Position numbers and translations under genes: made by a program. Source: a virus. From it: 22,220 nt of DNA. Positions 1-17,874 of the stretch are shown piece by piece. How positions within the stretch are numbered: position 1 is the first letter of the stretch; the number at the start of each line of letters is the position of its first letter. Location of the stretch: IMG/VR virus record IMGVR_UViG_3300046001_008732, positions 1 through 22,220 of that record; one strand, 5' to 3'. The notes below the pieces were generated by a model. The model was not told the DNA's origin, did not search any database, and worked only from the letters and a program-made list of their open reading frames with translations.

Positions 1-84
1 GCTACAAATAACTCTGCTGCAAATGGATATTCAGGAACTTCTTATGAATTAGTTACTGAAAAAAGATTAGTAGAAAGTTGCTAG
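1..84 (+). CDS. C-terminal end of an unidentified phage protein (partial)
   Basis: The frame is open from the first base and ends at TAG 82-84, giving 27 residues that finish in LVTEKRLVESC. The start lies outside the window. No function can be read from so little. The last three codons (Ser-Cys-stop, AGTTGCTAG) contain the TTG of the promoter for the next gene. The same AGTTG(C/T) arrangement occurs at the ends of the genes stopping at 1381 and 1614, which supports this being a real gene end in the same small-gene block. Confidence 0.6.
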   Translation, partial: ATNNSAANGYSGTSYELVTEKRLVESC

Positions 85-110
85 TTACAATTATAATTCA
101 TATATTTAGG
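78..110 (+). promoter_or_regulatory. Early-type promoter P1 (Bacteroidetes -33/-7 type)
   Basis: TTG at 78-80, exactly 20 bases, then TATATTTAGG at 101-110. This fits the Bacteroidetes sigma consensus TTG / TANNTTTG. The region 101-144 is identical over 44 bases to 527-570 (P2). It is followed by an A-rich leader with no Shine-Dalgarno sequence and drives the gene at 150. The TTG lies in the last codons of the upstream gene. Confidence 0.85.
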
Positions 111-149
111 TATCAAAATTAATTAATCAATAATTAAAAACAAACAGTT

Positions 150-497
150 ATGAAATGTACAAAACAAAATGTTATCGCTCAAGTTCAAAGTTCAGTTAGT
201 TCAATCTTCTCAAAAGAAGATGTATTGTTTCTTATCAATTCAATTGAAGAAAGAAAGTCAAGAGTTTTTACTCCAGAAGATCTTGAAAGAGCAATTGACA
301 AGACTATTAGTTGGATTGAAAATAATGAAAGAGATTTTCTAGATTTAGATTCAGCTGAATTAGAGATTGATTATAATCATAGAATTGAAGTTGTAGGAGT
401 TCCAGTTAATGTTGATAGTATTAGAGAAGCTTTAGAGAATAACTTCAGTGATTTTACAGAGATAGTAGATGAAGAAGAAGAGGAAAATGAATTGTAA
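150..497 (+). CDS. Small acidic phage protein of unknown function (115 aa)
   Basis: I do not recognise a family. The protein is soluble and largely helical in character: a Ser/Gln-rich start, a stretch FTPEDLERAIDKTISWIENN at about 41-60, and a very acidic tail (EIVDEEEEENEL). There is no membrane segment and no metal-binding motif. The ATG at 150 follows an A-rich leader from promoter P1, the only plausible signal, as there is no Shine-Dalgarno sequence. It is a single-gene unit, since P2 begins seven bases after its stop. Its place in a row of promoter-led small genes suggests an early host-takeover or regulatory gene, which is inference from context only. Confidence 0.8.
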   Translation: MKCTKQNVIAQVQSSVSSIFSKEDVLFLINSIEERKSRVFTPEDLERAIDKTISWIENNERDFLDLDSAELEIDYNHRIEVVGVPVNVDSIREALENNFSDFTEIVDEEEEENEL

Positions 498-503
498 ATA
501 AAG

Positions 504-536
504 TTGCTCAATTAGATTATAGTTCGTATATTTAGG
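504..536 (+). promoter_or_regulatory. Early-type promoter P2
   Basis: TTG at 504-506, 20 bases, TATATTTAGG at 527-536. The TATATTTAGG box and leader (527-570) match P1 over 44 bases without a change, including the palindromic TTAATTAA. It lies fully between genes and leads the three-gene unit 576-1381. Confidence 0.85.
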
Positions 537-575
537 TATCAAAATTAATTAATCAATAATTAAAAACAAAACATT

Positions 576-782
576 ATGACAGATTTAAAAGAGTTTTTAG
601 AAAGAGAATTATTTAAAATGAACAGAGGTATTGTAGCAACTCCAAACACTAGAGAAGATCTAGAATCATTTGCAAAAGCTAATGGAGGGTCAATGGATAT
701 TATTCTAATGCAAATGGCTATTAACTTTGGATACAAAATAGCATTAGAGAATGTTCAAGAGAAGTTAGAAGAAGTAATCTAA
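576..782 (+). CDS. Small phage protein of unknown function (68 aa)
   Basis: This short, soluble, probably helical protein starts MTDLKEFLERELFKMNRG and ends in the amphipathic stretch ALENVQEKLEEVI. I do not recognise a family. It is the first gene of a three-gene unit behind promoter P2, with an A-rich leader and no Shine-Dalgarno sequence. The next gene starts at the base directly after its stop (TAAATG), so the two are probably translated together. The position suggests early expression; the function is unknown. Confidence 0.75.
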   Translation: MTDLKEFLERELFKMNRGIVATPNTREDLESFAKANGGSMDIILMQMAINFGYKIALENVQEKLEEVI

Positions 783-1007
783 ATGTCTGAACTATATAAT
801 AAGTGGAAAGGAAAAGGGAGGAAGGTGTCTAAGACATCTTCTCCTATGATAGGGGTAGTTTATCAGGGAGTAGATAAGTTCTTTGGAAAGACAATTGTTG
901 GAATATTAGTTGAGATGTTTGATCAGAACGATGAAGCAATACTAAAGACAAAGGAGAATAAATTAGTTTCAGTAGATATTAAATCTTTAAAAATATTAGG
1001 AGTATGA
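783..1007 (+). CDS. Small basic phage protein, possible SH3-like fold (74 aa)
   Basis: The N-terminus is rich in Lys, Gly and Arg (about residues 7-18) and is followed by alternating hydrophobic strands (IGVVYQGVDKFFGKTIVGIL, then AILKTKENKLVSVDIKSLKIL). That pattern suggests a small beta-barrel of SH3/KOW type, but this is a visual impression and not a family match. It begins directly after the previous stop and overlaps the next gene by four bases (ATGA at 1004-1007), so it sits in the middle of a tightly coupled trio driven by P2. Function unknown. Confidence 0.75.
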   Translation: MSELYNKWKGKGRKVSKTSSPMIGVVYQGVDKFFGKTIVGILVEMFDQNDEAILKTKENKLVSVDIKSLKILGV

Positions 1008-1381
1008 AAAAAATTAAAGTAGGAGATAAAGTTCAAGTAGTACATCCAGGTAACACATATTCAACATACGATGCTATGTTTGTTGAGATGGGATTTACAA
1101 ATCAAAGAGTAAATGAAGCCTTTCAAAAAGGATTAGTTGTAGAAGTATTTGCAGTAAATTATCATCATAAGTCAGGAATTGATCTAGTAGGATTACAATC
1201 ACAAGATGGTTATCAATGCTTGATGAGTACTAATGGAGTCATTATTTTATCAACACCTTCTTCTGATCAACAGTTCGATATCATTAGACAATTCTGTGAT
1301 GAAGTATTAAGTTCACAAGAGATTAGTGACAGAGATATATTCAAATATTTGTTATCAAAGAGTTGCCATTCTGGAGAATAG
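1004..1381 (+). CDS. Phage protein with N-terminal SH3/KOW-like segment (125 aa)
   Basis: The protein opens with KKIKVGDKVQVVHPGNTYST followed by YDAMFVEMGF. From memory, this 'GD.V.VV..G..Y.TY..M...MG' pattern recurs in small uncharacterised phage proteins and probably forms an SH3/KOW-like barrel. The rest (about 45-125) is beta strands then a helical end. It overlaps the preceding gene by four bases (ATGA) and is last in the P2 unit. Its final codons, SKSCHSGE-stop, carry the TTG of promoter P3 (1363-1365), so the gene end and the next promoter are interlocked. No enzymatic motif is visible. Confidence 0.8.
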   Translation: MKKIKVGDKVQVVHPGNTYSTYDAMFVEMGFTNQRVNEAFQKGLVVEVFAVNYHHKSGIDLVGLQSQDGYQCLMSTNGVIILSTPSSDQQFDIIRQFCDEVLSSQEISDRDIFKYLLSKSCHSGE

Positions 1382-1395
1382 TTCTTATATTTAGG
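1363..1395 (+). promoter_or_regulatory. Early-type promoter P3
   Basis: TTG 1363-1365 (inside the 3' end of the upstream gene), 20 bases, TATATTTAGG 1386-1395. The stretch 1382-1417 is identical to 1627-1662 (P4) over 36 bases. Its leader is 14 bases shorter than those of P1 and P2. It drives the gene at 1423. Confidence 0.85.
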
Positions 1396-1422
1396 TATCA
1401 ATAATTAAAAAGATAAAGAGTT

Positions 1423-1614
1423 ATGAGAAAGATTTATATCAATAAAGAGTCAGGTAAGGAAGTAGAAGTTACTTCGGTTAGAAGATCAATGTTTGATAAT
1501 AGATGGTTTACTTTTGTAGATGAAGAAGAGACGATTTCTGATCTAAGAGAAGATGATTTTAAGTATTTGTATCGAGAAAAAGAACAGGAAGAAAGTTATT
1601 CAAAGAGTTGTTAG
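1423..1614 (+). CDS. Small charged phage protein of unknown function (63 aa)
   Basis: This 63-residue protein begins MRKIYINKESGKEVEVTSVRRS and is strongly charged. An early beta-rich half is followed by an acidic middle (DEEETISDLREDDF) and a Glu-rich end. No family is recognised. It is a single-gene unit behind promoter P3 with an A-rich leader and no Shine-Dalgarno sequence. The last codons read SKSC-stop, and AGTTGTTAG there supplies the TTG of promoter P4. This is the same gene-end/promoter overlap seen at 75-84. Confidence 0.75.
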   Translation: MRKIYINKESGKEVEVTSVRRSMFDNRWFTFVDEEETISDLREDDFKYLYREKEQEESYSKSC

Positions 1615-1640
1615 TCTCAGATTTAATTCTTATATTTAGG
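1608..1640 (+). promoter_or_regulatory. Early-type promoter P4
   Basis: TTG 1608-1610 (overlapping the SKSC-stop end of the upstream gene), 20 bases, TATATTTAGG 1631-1640. The box and leader 1627-1662 are identical to P3. It drives the gene at 1667. Confidence 0.85.
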
Positions 1641-1666
1641 TATCAATAATTAAAAAGATAAACAAT

Positions 1667-2029
1667 ATGACAAAAGAACAATTTTTAAAAGGAGTAAGTT
1701 TTAAAGTAAAAGGTTTAACTTACAAAGGTGCTCAGACTTTTTTCTACGATGAGTGTATAATGAAAGAGTCTAGATCTTCTGTAGATGATGAAGTATTATT
1801 CAAAGGCCATCATTGCAATGTATTGAAGATTGGTAGAACAGGCTTTACAGGTTTTACCTTTGTAATGAATAAAAAGGTAGTAGTTAAATATAGGTTTGAA
1901 GATTTAGTAGAATTTGTAGATCAAGGACCACAATATGATGGAGCAGGGTTTAGTATCGAAGATAGAGAACAAGATCCTGAATTACAATCTCACCACTGTG
2001 ATGATCCTTCTTGCAATTGTTCAATTTAG
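1667..2029 (+). CDS. Phage protein with two HHC clusters, possible metal binder (120 aa)
   Basis: The family is unknown. The body is beta-rich. Two His-His-Cys triplets stand out (H48-H49-C50 and H109-H110-C111), and the end carries a further C116-x-C118 in HHCDDPSCNCSI. Together these could bind a metal ion, but the spacing matches no zinc-finger class I know. It is a single-gene unit behind promoter P4. The strong terminator 15 bases after its stop closes the whole small-gene block. Start chosen at 1667 because it lies at the same position relative to the promoter leader as in the sister cassettes. Confidence 0.8.
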   Translation: MTKEQFLKGVSFKVKGLTYKGAQTFFYDECIMKESRSSVDDEVLFKGHHCNVLKIGRTGFTGFTFVMNKKVVVKYRFEDLVEFVDQGPQYDGAGFSIEDREQDPELQSHHCDDPSCNCSI

Positions 2030-2041
2030 GTTTTAGTATTT

Positions 2042-2072
2042 AAGAGAGAGTCTAACGACTCTCTTTTTTTTT
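2042..2072 (+). terminator. Intrinsic (Rho-independent) terminator
   Basis: A perfect 8-bp stem, AGAGAGTC (2045-2052) and GACTCTCT (2057-2064), encloses the loop TAAC and is followed by an uninterrupted run of T to 2072. It lies directly after the last gene of the promoter-cassette block and ends that transcription unit. Confidence 0.9.
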
Positions 2073-2079
2073 GGAAGGT

Positions 2080-2101
2080 GGTCAAGGTGAGGTCAAGGTG
2101 A
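2080..2101. repeat. Tandem 11-bp repeat (two copies)
   Basis: GGTCAAGGTGA is present twice in a row at 2080-2090 and 2091-2101, followed by a partial echo (CAGCAAGGTTA). It lies just downstream of the terminator in non-coding DNA. Confidence 0.75.
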
Positions 2102-2140
2102 CAGCAAGGTTAGAGAACACTGATCGTTTATTTCCCTCAA

Positions 2141-2161
2141 CGGGTATCCACTCGGGTATCC
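2141..2161. repeat. Direct repeat CGGGTATCC (two copies, 12-bp period)
   Basis: Identical 9-mers occur at 2141-2149 and 2153-2161, separated by ACT. About one helical turn apart, they could be paired protein-binding sites. They contain GGTATC, which also follows the -7 box in promoters P1 to P4. Confidence 0.65.
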
Positions 2162-2402
2162 TGCCCCACATAGAGAAGTATATTTCTGATGAAAATTGAG
2201 GTATGGGGGTATATATTTATATAAATTATATAGCTTTATGAAAGATGTTGTTTGAAAGTGTACCTAGTCCTCTCCCTACATTATTATCTGTACAGAGATT
2301 TCCTCAACCACTCTCCAGGTGTCCTCCTTCTCAAGTTTGATCTACATAACTGCTTTACTTCAAGCATAAGTTACCACCTATACCCCTAACCTACCTCTTA
2401 TG

Positions 2403-2433
2403 TTTTTCTATGAACTTTTACTTCTTATATTTA
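2403..2433 (+). promoter_or_regulatory. Possible degenerate early-type promoter
   Basis: TTCTTATATTTA (2422-2433) is identical to the -7 region of P3 and P4. The position 20 bases upstream carries TTT instead of TTG (2403-2405), and the trailing GG is replaced by AT. It would drive the gene at 2523 and lies inside the longer reading of that ORF. Confidence 0.35.
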
Positions 2434-2522
2434 ATATAGAACATTTCAGTCGACTTTCCAACTACCTAAGGGATTTTTTCCGGAAAATTTTTAGTTATAA
2501 GAAAGATATATATTTATATAGG

Positions 2523-2936
2523 ATGAAGAAACTTAACACCAACGGCCTTTTTGATATATTTCCAGTAGGTGAATACCTAGATGCTACCCCTATACTCTCT
2601 CCAGATACCTCTTTTACCTTATTTTGTAAAGTAATAAAAGGAGTAGAATACTTCCACATATTGGATATGGCTTATAGTAGTAAAAAGATTAATCTTACAG
2701 AAGAGCGTCTCTCCTTGTGCGATTCTATAAAACTAGAGCACTTTAATAGCTTATACAATATCCTGCATAGGGTTGAGGAGATACAGTCAGATACAGTAGA
2801 ATCACTCTCCGATGAACTAGGTCTCGAAAATATTGCGATATCCTTACAATCTCTACTAGATTACTACCAAGAAAAAGAATTTTATGAAAAATGTTCAGTT
2901 ATTTTTAAGTTTTACCAACTTTTCTTTAAAAAATAG
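2523..2936 (+). CDS. Phage protein of unknown function (137 aa)
   Basis: I do not recognise a family. The protein begins MKKLNTNGLFDIFPVGEYLD, has a beta-rich first half, then a helical second half ending in FYEKCSVIFKFYQLFFKK. The frame is open upstream to an ATG at 2400, which would add 41 residues. I prefer 2523 because the extension reads like translated non-coding DNA (MFFYELLLLIFNIEHF...) and contains the promoter-like TTCTTATATTTA. Promoter P5 begins directly at its stop codon. Expression is probably early, judging by neighbours. The alternative 2400 start cannot be excluded. Confidence 0.65.
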   Translation: MKKLNTNGLFDIFPVGEYLDATPILSPDTSFTLFCKVIKGVEYFHILDMAYSSKKINLTEERLSLCDSIKLEHFNSLYNILHRVEEIQSDTVESLSDELGLENIAISLQSLLDYYQEKEFYEKCSVIFKFYQLFFKK

Positions 2937-2969
2937 TTGCTAGAAATACTATTTATTCGTATATTTAGG
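2937..2969 (+). promoter_or_regulatory. Early-type promoter P5
   Basis: TTG 2937-2939, 20 bases, TATATTTAGG 2960-2969. The core and spacing match P1-P4, but the leader (2970-2997) has diverged, reading GTATAGTAATCAACTAAACAATAAAGGTC. It leads the membrane-protein pair at 2998 and 3195 and probably the gene at 3389. Confidence 0.82.
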
Positions 2970-2997
2970 TATAGTAATCAACTAAACAATAAAGGTC

Positions 2998-3192
2998 ATG
3001 GAAACTTTAATTTTAAATTTACTTCAGTACTACTTAGTAACAGGTGTAATTCTTTCTCTAGTTGTTGATATCTCTATCAGAGTTATCAAGGTAAGTCCTC
3101 CTTTTTCTCTTAAAGATATAATAGTTGTTGCCTTATTCTGGCCGACGGTTATCTCTACCTTGGTACAGGATTATATTAACGGAAATTTTTAA
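2998..3192 (+). CDS. Small two-segment membrane protein, copy 1 (64 aa)
   Basis: Two hydrophobic stretches, about residues 8-27 (LQYYLVTGVILSLVVDIS) and 40-57 (DIIVVALFWPTVISTLVQ), are joined by a short polar link and suggest a double-spanning inner-membrane protein. It is clearly related to the next gene: both show YY..G......+D+SIR, then a PF.L.+I motif, then WP in the second segment. The first gene after promoter P5, it starts without a Shine-Dalgarno sequence behind an A-rich leader. Small phage membrane proteins of this size can act in lysis, superinfection exclusion or membrane remodelling; nothing here decides. Confidence 0.72.
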   Translation: METLILNLLQYYLVTGVILSLVVDISIRVIKVSPPFSLKDIIVVALFWPTVISTLVQDYINGNF

Positions 3193-3194
3193 TA

Positions 3195-3380
3195 ATGATA
3201 GACTTCCTTACATACTACATTGGCATAGGGCTTGTTTTTACCATATTACTTGATATGAGTATTCGCGAGATGAACTCAAGTGAACCGTTTAATTTACCGG
3301 AGATTCTTTCTTGCGTTTTTATCTGGCCTCTTGTTCTTATACTTTTGATTGTTGAGTTTGTAAAAAATAATAAAAAGTAA
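3195..3380 (+). CDS. Small two-segment membrane protein, copy 2 (61 aa)
   Basis: This is a diverged tandem copy of the preceding gene. It shares the opening YY-x-x-G segment, the D-(M/I)-SIR motif at the end of the first hydrophobic stretch, the PF-(S/N)-L-x-(D/E)-I link and the WP in the second stretch. It ends in a Lys/Asn tail (VKNNKK), which would place the C-terminus in the cytoplasm by the positive-inside rule. It starts two bases after the stop of copy 1, so the pair is co-translated or at least co-transcribed from P5. Function unknown. Confidence 0.7.
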   Translation: MIDFLTYYIGIGLVFTILLDMSIREMNSSEPFNLPEILSCVFIWPLVLILLIVEFVKNNKK

Positions 3381-3388
3381 AAGAATAT

Positions 3389-4021
3389 ATGTATCGAGAA
3401 AAAATAAACCTTACTATGGCTAAGGCTTTAGAATTAGCAGGAGATATCACAATAGTGGATGCCTCGCCAGAGTCTCTTCCTATTCTTAAAGAGGGAGGAA
3501 AATGGTGGAGAGATAACTTCAACACCCTACTGGCTAAATATCCTCATATATCCCCAGATAAACTCCTTAACTTCCTTTCTGCAAAATATACCATAGAGGT
3601 TGAAGAAGGTATTGTAGATGTAGTAACTAATACACATTCCTGGAGATACCTATATGGTGTGGAAAATAGCAAAATAAAAAGTACAACTAAAGATGATGTA
3701 GAATACATCTATATCCTTGTTAATCCGGGGTATCCTGACTTGGTTAAGATAGGAATGACCATTCATGATGTTCATAGGAGAGCGACAGCGATAAACGCTA
3801 CAGCGACGGTGGAGGAGTGGGTTCCAAAATTTGCACTTCCTGTTAAGAAAGGAACTGCCTATAGAGTAGAGCAGATAGTACATAAATTCTTTGCACAACA
3901 GAGGGTTTCTTCCGATAGGGGTAATTCTAGGGAATTTTTTACTTTAGATCCTTTTGAAGCGTTTGATAAAGTAAGGGAGGTTGGGGCTTTGTTTCAAATA
4001 GGTAACCCTATTAGCTATTAA
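3389..4021 (+). CDS. T5orf172-domain protein, GIY-YIG nuclease superfamily (210 aa)
   Basis: The C-terminal half (about 104-195) has the layout of the T5orf172/MUG113 branch of GIY-YIG nucleases. Strand one is YIYILVNPGYPDLVKIGMT (Y106-x-Y108 and V119-K-I-G122), followed by DVHRRA with candidate catalytic R130/R131. Then come VEQIVHKFF with E161 as the likely metal ligand, and REFF at 181-184. The first 100 residues (KALELAGDITIV...GGKWWRDNFNTLLAKYP) are an extra helical domain I cannot place, perhaps for target recognition. Members of the family occur in phages and restriction-related genes, but the physiological substrate is mostly unknown. A second in-frame ATG at 3416 is a possible start. 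It follows the membrane pair by eight bases. Confidence 0.85.
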   Translation: MYREKINLTMAKALELAGDITIVDASPESLPILKEGGKWWRDNFNTLLAKYPHISPDKLLNFLSAKYTIEVEEGIVDVVTNTHSWRYLYGVENSKIKSTTKDDVEYIYILVNPGYPDLVKIGMTIHDVHRRATAINATATVEEWVPKFALPVKKGTAYRVEQIVHKFFAQQRVSSDRGNSREFFTLDPFEAFDKVREVGALFQIGNPISY

Positions 4022-5006: not shown

Positions 5007-5300
5007 ATGGGAGTTTTAGTAGGGGTTTTATGTTTCTTAGTACTAGTAAGTGCATATGTAATTTTTAACTTGAATAGAAAGGTAACTAAGCAGGAAGAGA
5101 TATTAAAATACCAAGTAGGGTATTTGCGAAATGTCTCGTATCTTATAGAAGAATCGAAAATATACATAGAACAATTAGATGAAAAAGGGGCATTTAGGTC
5201 AGATGATGAAGTAGGAGTTTTTTTTAACTTTATGAAAGAAATACAAGCAACTATAAATACTTACCGCCTTCCAAAGAATTATGGCGAAACCACAGAATAA
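5007..5300 (+). CDS. Small membrane-anchored phage protein (97 aa)
   Basis: An N-terminal hydrophobic segment at about residues 3-20 (VLVGVLCFLVLVSAYVIF) is followed by a positively charged turn and a helical, probably coiled-coil body. It ends in a motif around GAFRSDDEVGVFFNFMKEIQ. The 'G.F..DDEVG..F..MKEI' pattern recurs, to my recollection, in small uncharacterised proteins of T4-like phages, often near late-gene regulators. The orientation is probably N-out with a cytoplasmic body. Its last 20 bases overlap the start of the gp55-like gene, so the two are expressed together. Function unknown. Confidence 0.78.
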   Translation: MGVLVGVLCFLVLVSAYVIFNLNRKVTKQEEILKYQVGYLRNVSYLIEESKIYIEQLDEKGAFRSDDEVGVFFNFMKEIQATINTYRLPKNYGETTE

Positions 5301-5979
5301 AGACAACTACTATTTCACACAGGAAACAGAGGATGCAATCGTAAGATATAACGCATCCTCTGATCCTATTTATAGAGATAAGATATTTAAAAAAGAAATT
5401 TACATACCGCTTTATAAGCTATCAGAGAATATTATACATACTTTTAAATTTTACTACTTAGATGTAAATACTGTAGAAGATTTAAAATTAGACGTAGTAA
5501 GCATGTTGGTCGAAGATAAGTTACATAGGTTTGATAGTACGAATGGTGCTAAAGCATTTTCATATTTTCAAACAATAGTAAAGAGGTGGCTTATTAACTA
5601 TAATACCCGAAATTACAAGAAATTAAAGCAGATAGGGTCTTTTGAAGAGATGGAAGATTCCTATGAAGGCTATGGACTACAGGAAGTAGGTAGAAGTATC
5701 CCGCTTACCGTAGTAGTAAATCTTTTTGTAGAGAAAAGTTATAGTAATATGGAAGAACTATTTCCTAAGGAGCAAGATCAGAAAGTAGCAGATGCAATAC
5801 TAACCCTTTTTAAATCACGACAGGACTTAGAGATTTTTGGAAAAAAAGCACTATACATCTACATAAGAGAGATGACTGATTGTGAAACTCCTACTCTTAC
5901 AAGGGTAATCTCAAGACTTAAAGAGGAGTTCTATAGTTTACATAATTCGTACCAAGCAGTAGGAATAACTATTCAATAA
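5281..5979 (+). CDS. 55: gp55-like RNA polymerase sigma factor for late transcription
   Basis: The N-terminal half resembles T4-family gp55: YYFTQETEDAIVRYN at 10-24, IYIPLYKLSENIIHTFKFYY at 40-59, then HRFDSTNGAKAFSYFQTIVKR (82-102) and WLINYNTRNYKKLK (103-116). This corresponds to sigma region 2, which binds core polymerase and the -10 element. At 232 aa it is somewhat longer than T4 gp55 (185 aa). The C-terminal part (about 150-232) is helical, and I could not identify the clamp-binding tail of T4 gp55. It lies just ahead of the baseplate operon, which it is expected to help transcribe with the host core enzyme. The start at 5281 overlaps the preceding gene by 20 bases. Confidence 0.88.
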   Translation: MAKPQNKDNYYFTQETEDAIVRYNASSDPIYRDKIFKKEIYIPLYKLSENIIHTFKFYYLDVNTVEDLKLDVVSMLVEDKLHRFDSTNGAKAFSYFQTIVKRWLINYNTRNYKKLKQIGSFEEMEDSYEGYGLQEVGRSIPLTVVVNLFVEKSYSNMEELFPKEQDQKVADAILTLFKSRQDLEIFGKKALYIYIREMTDCETPTLTRVISRLKEEFYSLHNSYQAVGITIQ

Positions 5980-6012: not shown

Positions 6013-6360
6013 ATGGGATTAGAAACTACAATTTTCGGAAATAAGACGGTTTCCGATGTATTAAAGGAAATTTACGATAATTCAAAGAATAAATCAAAGC
6101 AAGTCAATGCATTAATTGCAGAGCTAAAACCTCTTGTAGAAAATATAGGGGATGCTACATTAGTAGTTCCTATGATTAAGGAGTATTTAGAGGTAGGAGT
6201 AAAGAATGATGAGCATTTAATAAAAATGGTAGCTCTAGTACAGAGGTTTGACGGAGGAGCAAAAGGATCAGAATCAGACTACTTCAACCCAGAAGAGCTT
6301 GCAAAACTAATGGAACAGAGTGAGGAGCTAGGTAAGCAATTAGATAAAAAAGACGAGTAA
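6013..6360 (+). CDS. Small helical protein at the head of the baseplate operon (115 aa)
   Basis: This all-helical protein contains the runs TVSDVLKEIYDNSKNKSKQVN, LIAELKPLVENIGDATLVVPMI and KEYLEVGVKNDEHLIKMVALVQRF, and an acidic end (LMEQSEELGKQLDKKDE). It has no membrane segment. I recognise it only as the kind of conserved unknown protein that accompanies gp55 and spike genes in T4-like phages. It is the first gene of the late operon, 33 bases after the sigma factor gene, and its TAA overlaps the ATG of the spike gene (TAATG). It may be a minor baseplate component or an assembly chaperone; both are guesses from position. Confidence 0.78.
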   Translation: MGLETTIFGNKTVSDVLKEIYDNSKNKSKQVNALIAELKPLVENIGDATLVVPMIKEYLEVGVKNDEHLIKMVALVQRFDGGAKGSESDYFNPEELAKLMEQSEELGKQLDKKDE

Positions 6361-8479: not shown

Positions 8480-8496
8480 CAAAACTATTTATTAAT

Positions 8497-12600: not shown

Positions 12601-15600
12601 ATGGCAGATATCATATACACAGTTAATCAAGAGATTCCTGAGAATATAGAAGGATTTGAACAGTACTCACAAGAGGATAAGGAATTAATAAGTTCCTTTC
12701 AGATTAATAGTGTATTTGATCCAACAAAAAACAGTGCTCAACTACATATTTTATCACTATCAGATGAACTTCTAGAAAGCATATACGATTATACAAGATT
12801 TACTCAATTAGGAAACGCACAATCTGCAGGGCAAACAGGAGCATCGGTATTAACTATTGATCCTATTGCAGACAGTAAAGCATACGGATATGAGAATGGA
12901 GGAGTAAAATTGCTCTACCACTTTCTAGATGACCTATACACCCCAGATAGGAGTACAGTAGATTTTTATATACAAGAAATATCACAAGATAGGACAGAGG
13001 TAAGTCTATCAACCTTAAGCCTAACAGCAGAAGAACTTACATCCCTAACCTCTGCCATTAAAAGTAGATTACAGAGTCAATCATACTTTACAGGATTTAG
13101 GTTAGATTTTAAGAATAACGACTTATTTATTGCAACAAATATAGATACCCTAACTTTAGGGGATGAAAAAGTAGTTGTAGTAAAGCTATATGAACCACTT
13201 CCAATAAACTATAGAGTAAAGAGTGTATTAAGCATAGTTGAGGTAGTATCAGACTCTGTTGCTTATGAAGTAGATTCAGAGTTTATAATAGCACCAGACC
13301 CAGTACCAACCTTAAGATCTCCAAATTTTAATATTGAGATAGCAGATGAAAGCGTAGTACCTACGGGATACTATACCTATGATGAACTTCTTAGTTATCC
13401 AATAAATAATAGTAATAGTGAAATATATACTGCAATAAGTGAAAAAGGAGTAGATATTAGTATAGACTTTTCTAATTTCAGTAACTTTATACATTTCTCA
13501 TCCGCACAAGAGAGATTGTTGAATTTTAAATATAAATTAGATTTAATAGCAAGTTACTCTCAAAGTATTGCATCTGGATCAAACGCAACAACAGGTCTTC
13601 AAGGAATATCAGGAAGTAGATTGTTTTACGAAAAACAACTAACTGGAGTTATTAGTAATTTTGATCAATACGAAAGATTTCTATATTATGAATCTGGAAG
13701 CGATTCTTGGCCAAAAACAGGTACAACAAAGCCATATACAAATAAAATAAGCACAGATGCAGAGGCAATAAGTTGGTATACAAGTCAAATTACTGATGCA
13801 ATTAACTACGATAATACAAACTATAACTCATTAATTCAGAGTATACCGACATACTTACGAGACGACGCTAGTAATCAAAACTATCTAACTTTCGTATTCA
13901 TGGTAGGACAGCATTTCGATAACTTATGGCTATACTCAAAAGCAGTAACAGATAAATACGATGCTGATAATAGAATAGGCTTTGGAATATCAAAAGACTT
14001 AGTAGCAGAAGCTTTAAAGAATTTTGGAGTAAAACTCTATACATCAAATAATTCTATACAAGACTTATTTACCACTATTATAGGACAAGCTTACCAAACA
14101 GGTAGTGAGGTGATAACTAACTACATTACAGGATCTCTAACAGGATCAAATACTCCTATTCAACCATCCTCGTATAATAACTACGAAAAGGAAATTCAAA
14201 AACGAATATACCACAATCTTCCTTTATTAATTAAATCAAAAGGGACAGAGAGAGGTTTAAGAGCACTAATTAATTGCTTTGGAATCCCTTCAGAAATATT
14301 AAAAATTAAGACATACGGAGGAAGAAATACAGAAGAACTGCCTTTCTACGGGGATTCTACATATTATACTAGTTCTTTAGATAAAATAAGATTAGATCAT
14401 ACAGGAAGTATCATAGCCGGAAACACTCTATCAACTAACACTTCAATAATAAAGAGAGATGCAAAATATACAGATGATTTACACAGTATAGAAGTAGGGT
14501 TTTCTCCTACAGATAATATAGATAATTTTATAGTATCAGCTTCTCTCGCCACAGGTTCTCTATCAAACTTTAATATTGACGAGTACATAGGAGATCCAAG
14601 AAACCTGTACATGGATAGGTATGAAGGACTAGATCTACAAGCACAGAATATACTCGGGGACTTAACTCAATATAACCTACAAGACTATGTAAGATTGATT
14701 AAGTTCTTTGATAATATAATCTTTAAGATGATTAAGGATTTTATCCCAGCTAGAGCAGTTGCAGATACAGGTATTATCATTAAGCCAAATTTATTAAACA
14801 GATCAAAAGCTAAATCAGTACAAGTAGAAGTAACACAACCGGAATACTCAGGATCAATAGATACAGCATTTATTACAGGATCAAATGCAAGATCTTTTGG
14901 AGCAAATGATGACTATATTACAGGGTACACAACAAGAGTACAAACACCTTTTGGAATAGGAAGCATTACTGATAACTTAAACGAGCAACCTAAATTTAAT
15001 GGTGAATTAGCAAATAGTGGTATACTAGTATCAAATGGAGAGTGGAATGAAGACAATCCATATAAACAACCGCTTATAGTTGATTATAGCTATAACATAC
15101 GAGTATGGACGGTACCGAATATATGTATATTTGACCCAGATAGCATAGACATAAGGTACGTAACATCAAGTACTGCAACTTATCCCCCTACTTACTTTTT
15201 TGATAATGGACTACTAGCAACAACAGTATACACTTCTTCCAACCCAGCAGGAGAAGTCATATATCCTACCATGCCAGTATCCTACTCAGGATATAGCCAA
15301 TACCAAAGCATCTATATGACTGCAAGTAATGGAATACTACCAGAAGATACAGAAGAGTGTGTAGATGTAGTAAATGTAATTTATGGAACATGTAGCCTAT
15401 CACTTACACTATCAGGACAGCTAACATCATCTGTAGCACCGAATGCTGTTGTAAACTTAAACACTTGGTTTGAAATACACCCAGATCAGACAATAGACTA
15501 TGCAGTATACATACCAGCAAATTCACCAACACCAATAGCAACCTTCACACCATATACCTACAACCAACAAAACTTCTATCAATTTCCAAATGCGGTAACA

Positions 15601-17186: not shown

Positions 17187-17214
17187 TATTTATAAAATAT
17201 AAACATACAAGAAA
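17187..17214 (+). promoter_or_regulatory. AT-rich leader with possible late promoter core
   Basis: The 51-base gap before 17215 contains TATTTATA (17187-17194) followed by AAATATAAAC and an A-rich leader. The same core occurs at 2214, 2511 and 5992. In T4 the late promoter core is TATAAATA, which is the reverse complement, so the orientation does not fit simply. Weak evidence. Confidence 0.25.
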
Positions 17215-17874
17215 ATGGGATACTTAAGTAATGCAGTGGTAACTGTAGATGCAATTTTAACAAAAAAAGGTAGAGAACTACTTGCAAGAGGTGATGGATC
17301 TTTTAAAATAACACAATTTGCTTTAGCAGATGATGAGATTGACTATACATTATACAATCCAGATCACCCATCAGGATCTGCATATTTCGGTCAAGCTATT
17401 GAAGCAATGCCTCTTCTCGAAGCATTTCCTGATGAAACTCAGATTATGAAGTATAAACTTACAACTCTACCAAGAGGTACAGCTAAGTTACCGATACTAG
17501 ATCTAGGATTTGCAGCTATTAGACTAAAGCAAGGAGCATCATTAGCAGTAACTCCACAAACACTAAACTACCTAGGAGCAACACAGACATTCGAATCATC
17601 AGGGTACGTTGCAACTCTTGCCGATGCTAGAGTTACAAATACGTTTAATGGAGTAGGAGTTAATACAACAGAAGCAGTAGCATTAAACTCGACAACAACA
17701 CTAGGTACCAATGTATCTAAAACAGTAATAGGAACATCCATTAATATTACAGCAACAACAATTAATACACTGTTTGGAGCAAACGAGACACTACAAACAA
17801 CTTTAACAGTGATAGGTAGAGATTCAGGAGCTAGAGTAACAATACCGGTAACAATTATAAAAGTAAATCAATAA
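17215..17874 (+). CDS. Conserved virion structural protein (219 aa)
   Basis: The N-terminal 60 residues are highly characteristic: VDAILTKKGRELLARGDGSF, then KITQFALADDEIDYTLYNP. This segment recurs, from memory, in structural proteins of many marine T4-like phages. It is followed by EAMPLLEAFPDETQIMKYKL and LPRGTAKLPILDL. The C-terminal half (about 120-219) is Thr/Asn-rich and beta-rich (TTLGTNVSKTVIGTSINITATTINTLFG), like an Ig-type or fibre-stem domain. Its exact place in the particle is not known to me. It heads a run of adhesin-region genes; the next gene begins two bases after its stop. Confidence 0.8.
   Translation: MGYLSNAVVTVDAILTKKGRELLARGDGSFKITQFALADDEIDYTLYNPDHPSGSAYFGQAIEAMPLLEAFPDETQIMKYKLTTLPRGTAKLPILDLGFAAIRLKQGASLAVTPQTLNYLGATQTFESSGYVATLADARVTNTFNGVGVNTTEAVALNSTTTLGTNVSKTVIGTSINITATTINTLFGANETLQTTLTVIGRDSGARVTIPVTIIKVNQ

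Follow-up and report, generated by a model that had tools for sequence, protein, structure and literature searches.

Bacteroidetes promoters of the sigma-ABfr type feature a -33 TTTG and a -7 TAnnTTTG (PMC6847099, PMC9723704). The -7 element of Flavobacterium johnsoniae, TAHHTTTG, shows little variation at T-12, A-11, T-8, T-7, T-6 and G-5; the -33 motif of this species is weak, and 4-5 nt separate the -7 element from the transcription start (PMC6847099). The -7 element of F. psychrophilum is likewise TAnnTTTG (PMC9723704). Little has apparently been published on promoters of Bacteroidota phages, and no paper describing the motif treated here was found in the open-access literature. For T4-type phages, Arbiol is said to have described mobile regulatory cassettes in 2010, termed PeSL (promoter-early stem-loop).

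The DNA analyzed here (IMGVR_UViG_3300046001_008732; “the window”) is a 22,220-bp IMG/VR fragment. Several of its proteins, those of the baseplate among them, share 69-82% identity with their counterparts in immuto (NC_055915), a Flavobacterium phage of 160 kb whose isolation host is Flavobacterium sp. LMO8. The window thus comes from a relative of immuto, within a large T4-like family of viruses that infect Flavobacterium-type bacteria. Beyond immuto, the next relatives stand at a much greater distance: the Microcystis phage Mel-JY01 and LR756508, a metagenomic phage of 484 kb. The window carries five copies of TTG-N20-TATATTTAGG, hereafter the class-1 element. On the sequence statistics given below, this element is a real, lineage-wide promoter class, intermediate between the consensus of the host and a signature of the phages, and it often overlaps a terminator-like hairpin.

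The class-1 element in the window and its relatives

All five copies proposed in a preliminary description of this DNA were located exactly, with zero mismatches, on the plus strand. TATATTTAGG occurs in the window exactly five times and is absent from the minus strand; every box has a TTG at N20 and at no other spacing from 14 to 26. When up to two mismatches were allowed, the same five sites were still the only ones returned (about two are expected by chance). TAT follows the box in all five, extended to TATC in four. An ATG lies 26-39 nt past each box and opens an ORF (115, 68, 63, 120 and 64 aa, respectively). The features are as follows.

78..113, plus strand: putative promoter 1 (TTG 78-80, N20, -7 box TATATTTAGG 101-110, TAT 111-113)
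150..497, plus strand: 115-aa ORF of promoter 1, no PHROGs or Pfam match
504..539, plus strand: putative promoter 2 (TTG 504-506, box 527-536, TAT 537-539)
576-782, 783-1007 and 1004-1381, plus strand: three small ORFs of promoter 2, no significant family match (PHROGs, Pfam)
1363..1398, plus strand: putative promoter 3 (TTG 1363-1365, box 1386-1395, TAT 1396-1398), overlapping the end of the upstream ORF
1423..1614, plus strand: 63-aa ORF of promoter 3
1608..1643, plus strand: putative promoter 4 (TTG 1608-1610, box 1631-1640, TAT 1641-1643)
1667..2029, plus strand: 120-aa ORF of promoter 4
2937..2972, plus strand: putative promoter 5 (TTG 2937-2939, box 2960-2969, TAT 2970-2972)
2998..3192, plus strand: 64-aa ORF of promoter 5; next comes a 61-aa ORF (3195-3380)

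The host geometry would place the transcription start of promoter 1 at 113-114. Starts had been expected just after GGTATC; the Flavobacterium geometry (PMC6847099) instead puts them within GGTATC, on the second T or the C. The promoter cassettes are adjoined at 3389-4021 by a gene for a T5orf172-domain (GIY-YIG-like) protein (Pfam PF10544, E 1.5e-12).

A lack of further copies would have refuted the preliminary description, but the element is not confined to the window. In immuto, TATATTTAGG has 16 exact copies, all on the gene strand and all with TTG at N20, with none at the other spacings from 14 to 26. A relaxed scan of this genome returned 29 class-1 sites having an ORF start 10-80 nt downstream, and a weight matrix returned 30 gene-strand sites and one antisense site above a threshold that no shuffled genome neared. 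The shorter pattern TTG-N20-TATMTT was matched 53 times on the gene strand, compared with 1-7 times at other spacings and 10 times on the opposite strand.

Further loci were selected by homology to the protein encoded at 5281-5979 of the window and to a gp25-like baseplate protein; the motif itself was therefore not selected for, and this set is termed unbiased. It contained 223 boxes on the gene strand and 20 antisense. When these loci were combined with immuto, TTG stood at N20 in 164 of 230 non-redundant boxes, with only 9 at the next-best spacing; the boxes lacking it mostly resemble coding sequence. The 20-base spacing called invariant in the preliminary description holds for the window and for the exact immuto boxes, and it predominates in the family. 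In the unbiased set, TTG is preceded by A (91%) and G (97%) and followed by C (79%), and the extended upstream box reads AAAWAGTTGC; TTC stands ahead of the -7 box (93/82/82%), and the TAT that was proposed to follow AGG stands behind it (98/97/91%).

The larger set, comprising all fetched viral loci, held 524 sites with 464 unique spacers; the patterns used for searching introduce some bias into its flank percentages. The claim that a small gene always follows is borne out in the window; in the larger set, an ORF opens within 120 nt past 491 of the 524 sites, at a median of 24 nt. The class-1 consensus reads A-rich-AGTTGC-N15-TTCN-TATMTTTARG-TAT-leader-ATG. Chance or AT-richness as the source of the element is rejected by the spacing and strand statistics.

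The description of the class as phage-specific also agrees with the database scans. An 18-base pattern searched in 257 Gb of bacterial genomes gave five matches, about the level of chance, and in 80 Bacteroidota genomes the element was not enriched relative to a control; a host promoter motif captured by chance was rejected because these scans lay at background level. A stricter 21-base pattern was recurrent in viral contigs among the matches listed. Multi-copy contigs found via the motif alone carried immuto homologs in 61 of 64 cases. Scanning for AGTTG-N20-TATATTTAGG alone takes in chance matches in AT-rich contigs, as 24 of 79 single-site loci had no immuto homolog.

For Mel-JY01, LR756508, phiST, FCL-2 and phi14:2, the scan covered a single region per phage, 50 kb long at most. 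No class-1 boxes were found in the 50 kb of Mel-JY01, whose host is cyanobacterial, and its matches to TTG-N20-TATATT lie mostly inside a coding repeat; the 50 kb of LR756508 likewise held no class-1 sites. The growth of immuto on a Flavobacterium and the lack of the element in the scanned region of its cyanophage relative fit the proposal that the element points to a host in the Bacteroidota. A motif universal to Bacteroidetes phages was unsupported in the regions of FCL-2, phi14:2 and LR756508, and that of phiST has only a broader TTG-N20-TATCTTTA. In this Cellulophaga phage (L405), CTGTTG/TTG-N20-TATCTTTA precedes small genes at 753, 1054 and 1323 (plus strand) and at 13457, 17700, 22431 and 41575 (minus strand).

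Hairpins and candidate antisense transcripts

In immuto and the window, the -33 region and spacer have a summed folding energy of -152 kcal/mol, compared with a shuffled mean of -86; none of 300 shuffles attained the observed value, and about 10 clear hairpins lie over this region, for example at immuto 69590 and 64522. A folding energy of -8 kcal/mol or better was obtained for 22 of the 148 spacers of the unbiased set (2.9 when shuffled); among all sites, 82 of 464 unique spacers bear a hairpin (24 when shuffled). The TTG sits in the 5' arm or the loop of the hairpin, and a T-rich run fills the spacer. The hairpin is terminator-like and may be an intrinsic terminator superimposed on the promoter. 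At promoter 5 there is a weak hairpin over the -33 region (about 2931-2954, MFE -3.4) that is not significant alone. The preliminary description missed both the overlap of hairpin and promoter, which affects a significant subset of the family copies, and the second, T4-late-like motif treated below.

On the opposite strand, two conserved noncoding transcripts appear, from sequence, to originate at promoters of this kind. The first is a candidate structured RNA of ca. 370 nt at about 2040-2430 of the window (minus strand; 2040-2461 with its promoter-like site), with a homolog in immuto (locus L127, 29105-29534, minus strand). The site upstream of it is conserved in relatives:

2433..2461, minus strand: antisense promoter-like site TTG-N20-TATATTAAAT (TTG-N20-TATATT)

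In an alignment of 18 phages, which shows compensatory base changes, 95.9% of the cells of the consensus structure were paired, compared with 31-54% when it was slid, and there were 39 double-change cells compared with 14 after shuffling. The ORF listed at 2400-2936 probably starts at an internal ATG at 2522 and not at 2400: its first 120 bases overlap the promoter of the antisense RNA and are located in noncoding sequence. The second candidate is a short, GC-rich noncoding block, GGGGCCTGGCTTTGAAAGAGAGTCGGAAGAGTAGACGGGCCGGTAC, that immediately follows an antisense class-1 promoter, TATCTTTAGG (L127, 22438-22555, minus strand; about 67.4-67.6 kb of immuto). This block is also present in loci L011, L034, L070, L076, L118, L141, L147, L184 and L188. 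Neither candidate RNA had a significant match in Rfam.

Reading of the element and rival explanations

The preliminary description held that the element copies the host sigma consensus, and here it must be amended. Position -5 is A in every window site and in every exact immuto site, so that none has the TAnnTTTG with G-5 of the host. Boxes of immuto with TTG at N20 comprised 33 TATMTTTA and 16 TATMTTA, and upstream of immuto ORFs there was no TAnnTTTG with TTG at any spacing from 15 to 26. The TTG is at the correct -33 position; it is preceded by G in 97% of sites, compared with the TTTG of the host. The TTG-to-TA spacing is exactly 20 in the phages, within the 19-20 nt of host promoters. In the Bacteroidota genome G002, TTG-N19/20-TAnnTTTG formed an excess class; genome G023 had no clear peak. 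The T, A and TTT positions of the host are shared, yet A-5 and a strong -33 box are added; the class therefore would work like a host-sigma promoter without being a standard member.

Our preferred reading, with a probability of about 0.72, is that class 1 is a promoter class of the Immutovirus-like lineage (T4-like phages of Flavobacteriia-type Bacteroidota), and that host RNA polymerase, unmodified and carrying its primary sigma (sigma-ABfr), most likely transcribes from it at an early stage of infection. The (A)GTTGC at -33 would be contacted by sigma region 4 and the TATMTTTA at -12 to -5 by region 2, and AGG-TAT may act as a discriminator or initial-transcript signature. From each element, a single small gene or a few of them would be expressed; the leader is A-rich, lacks a Shine-Dalgarno sequence and soon reaches the ATG. 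A sizeable minority of copies would have the hairpin that terminates the upstream gene folded over the -33 region and spacer, making a stop/start cassette of ca. 55 nt that may insulate neighboring small genes. Structural genes would use the separate TATTTATA motif, which lacks a -33 box and is probably read by the phage's sigma-like protein. The sigma identity, early timing, strength, start sites and terminator activity are predicted from sequence; “strong” and “early” derive from gene content and consensus quality, and “early” also from the partition between class-1 and late motifs. A phage-encoded sigma70 was considered as a candidate, and no sigma70 region 2 or region 4 match was found in immuto.

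Several observations weigh against this reading. At -5 the phage has A where the host has a nearly invariant G, and the host -33 TTTG is GTTG in the phage; unmodified sigma-ABfr therefore may not be the reader, or not the only one. The window's own five sites have no significant hairpin. Also, the phage protein to which the late motif is assigned has weak similarity to sigma factors.

A variant of these ideas is tentatively put forward. The element would be composite, with the -33 box, spacer and upstream intrinsic terminator being the same DNA, and the obligatory A-5 would define a subclass that host genes avoid, allowing the phage, or a sigma modified by it, to discriminate the phage's early genes from those of the host. 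The phiST sites would suggest convergence, and convergent use of the same A-5 subclass by that phage is possible.

We consider it unlikely that the elements are middle-type promoters, in which a phage activator would bind AGTTGC at a fixed distance and host polymerase would contact only the -7 box, as with MotA/AsiA of T4. Contact by sigma region 4 alone would lead one to expect less rigidity than is seen in the fixed 20-nt spacing and AAAWAGTTGC, and A-5 departs from the host consensus. However, the TTG is exactly at the host -33 position, and the unrelated phiST also has TTG-N20-TATCTTTA, which a shared host factor explains more easily. No AsiA family match was found in immuto, although the control matched weakly and a diverged AsiA could be missed.

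A T4-late-like motif marks the structural genes. In immuto, TATTTATA lies 20-35 nt upstream of structural genes without a -33 box. Class-1 sites lie outside the structural half in 28 of 29 cases, and late motifs lie inside it in 15 of 27 (p=1.4e-5). The window has the same split between the two classes:

5281..5979, plus strand: 232-aa sigma-like (perhaps gp55-like) protein, candidate late sigma, 82% identical to that of immuto and 37-40% to those of Mel-JY01 and LR756508
5992..5999, plus strand: late-type motif TATTTATA, upstream of the ORF at 6013
17187..17194, plus strand: late-type motif TATTTATA, upstream of the ORF at 17215

A further late motif is possibly present at 8486. The 232-aa protein had no Pfam or PHROGs match; hhalign aligned it weakly to T4 gp55 (P 0.069), and the top Foldseek matches of its model (pLDDT 75, pTM 0.46) were sigma factors with E >= 0.13; the assignment as sigma-like is weak. 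That this protein, instead of host sigma, reads class 1 seems improbable. It may have two sigma-like domains, its best Foldseek matches being an ECF sigma and sigma32. However, its homologs also occur in Mel-JY01 and LR756508, in whose scanned regions there are no class-1 sites, and the early genes could in that case be expressed only once a phage sigma had been made. Mel-JY01 (L404) has both the homolog and ATATTTAT before structural genes; the phage sigma therefore appears to track the late motif, and class 1 the Bacteroidota host.

Least probable is that the repeats serve mostly as modules for recombination, or stem from recent duplication of cassettes, and are conserved by copying more than by promoter function: the stem-loop cassettes at T4 early promoters may favor shuffling and a few copies share an identical spacer (immuto 71002 and 71272), but the abundance of unique spacers and the confinement of high conservation to AGTTG, TTC, the box and TAT argue for functional constraint, and both roles can coexist.

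Comparison with known systems

With hundreds of copies of the motif and a cultured relative, immuto, promoter recognition by the unusual sigma-ABfr is directly testable, as are phage take-over of Bacteroidota transcription and the overlap of terminator and promoter. The element serves as a marker of host phylum and lineage for metagenomic phage contigs, and it is a candidate part for Flavobacterium expression tools.

Class 1 shares with sigma-ABfr promoters (PMC6847099, PMC9723704) T-12, A-11, T-8, T-7 and T-6, the TTG at the -33 position, comparable spacing, and a short A-rich leader lacking a Shine-Dalgarno sequence. It differs in having A-5 for the near-invariant G-5, GTTG for TTTG, a strict N20, a strong -33 box, the ARG-TAT extension and TTC before the box. 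The phiST sites have the same -33/-7 geometry, 20-nt spacing, A-5 and location before small genes, whereas they have CTGTTG before the spacer and no AGGTAT extension, and they belong to an unrelated phage with an annotated RNA polymerase.

The late-type motif resembles T4 late promoters (TATAAATA, gp55) in lacking a -33 box, preceding structural genes and co-occurring with a possibly gp55-like protein; the motif here is TATTTATA, not TATAAATA, and the homology to gp55 is weakly supported. Compared with T4 early promoters and PeSL, there are likewise many near-identical promoters, here presumably early and read by host polymerase, a plastic region of small ORFans and a stem-loop at the promoter. 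In contrast to PeSL, the boxes are of the Bacteroidetes type, and the hairpin overlaps the -33 region and spacer in a minority of copies only.

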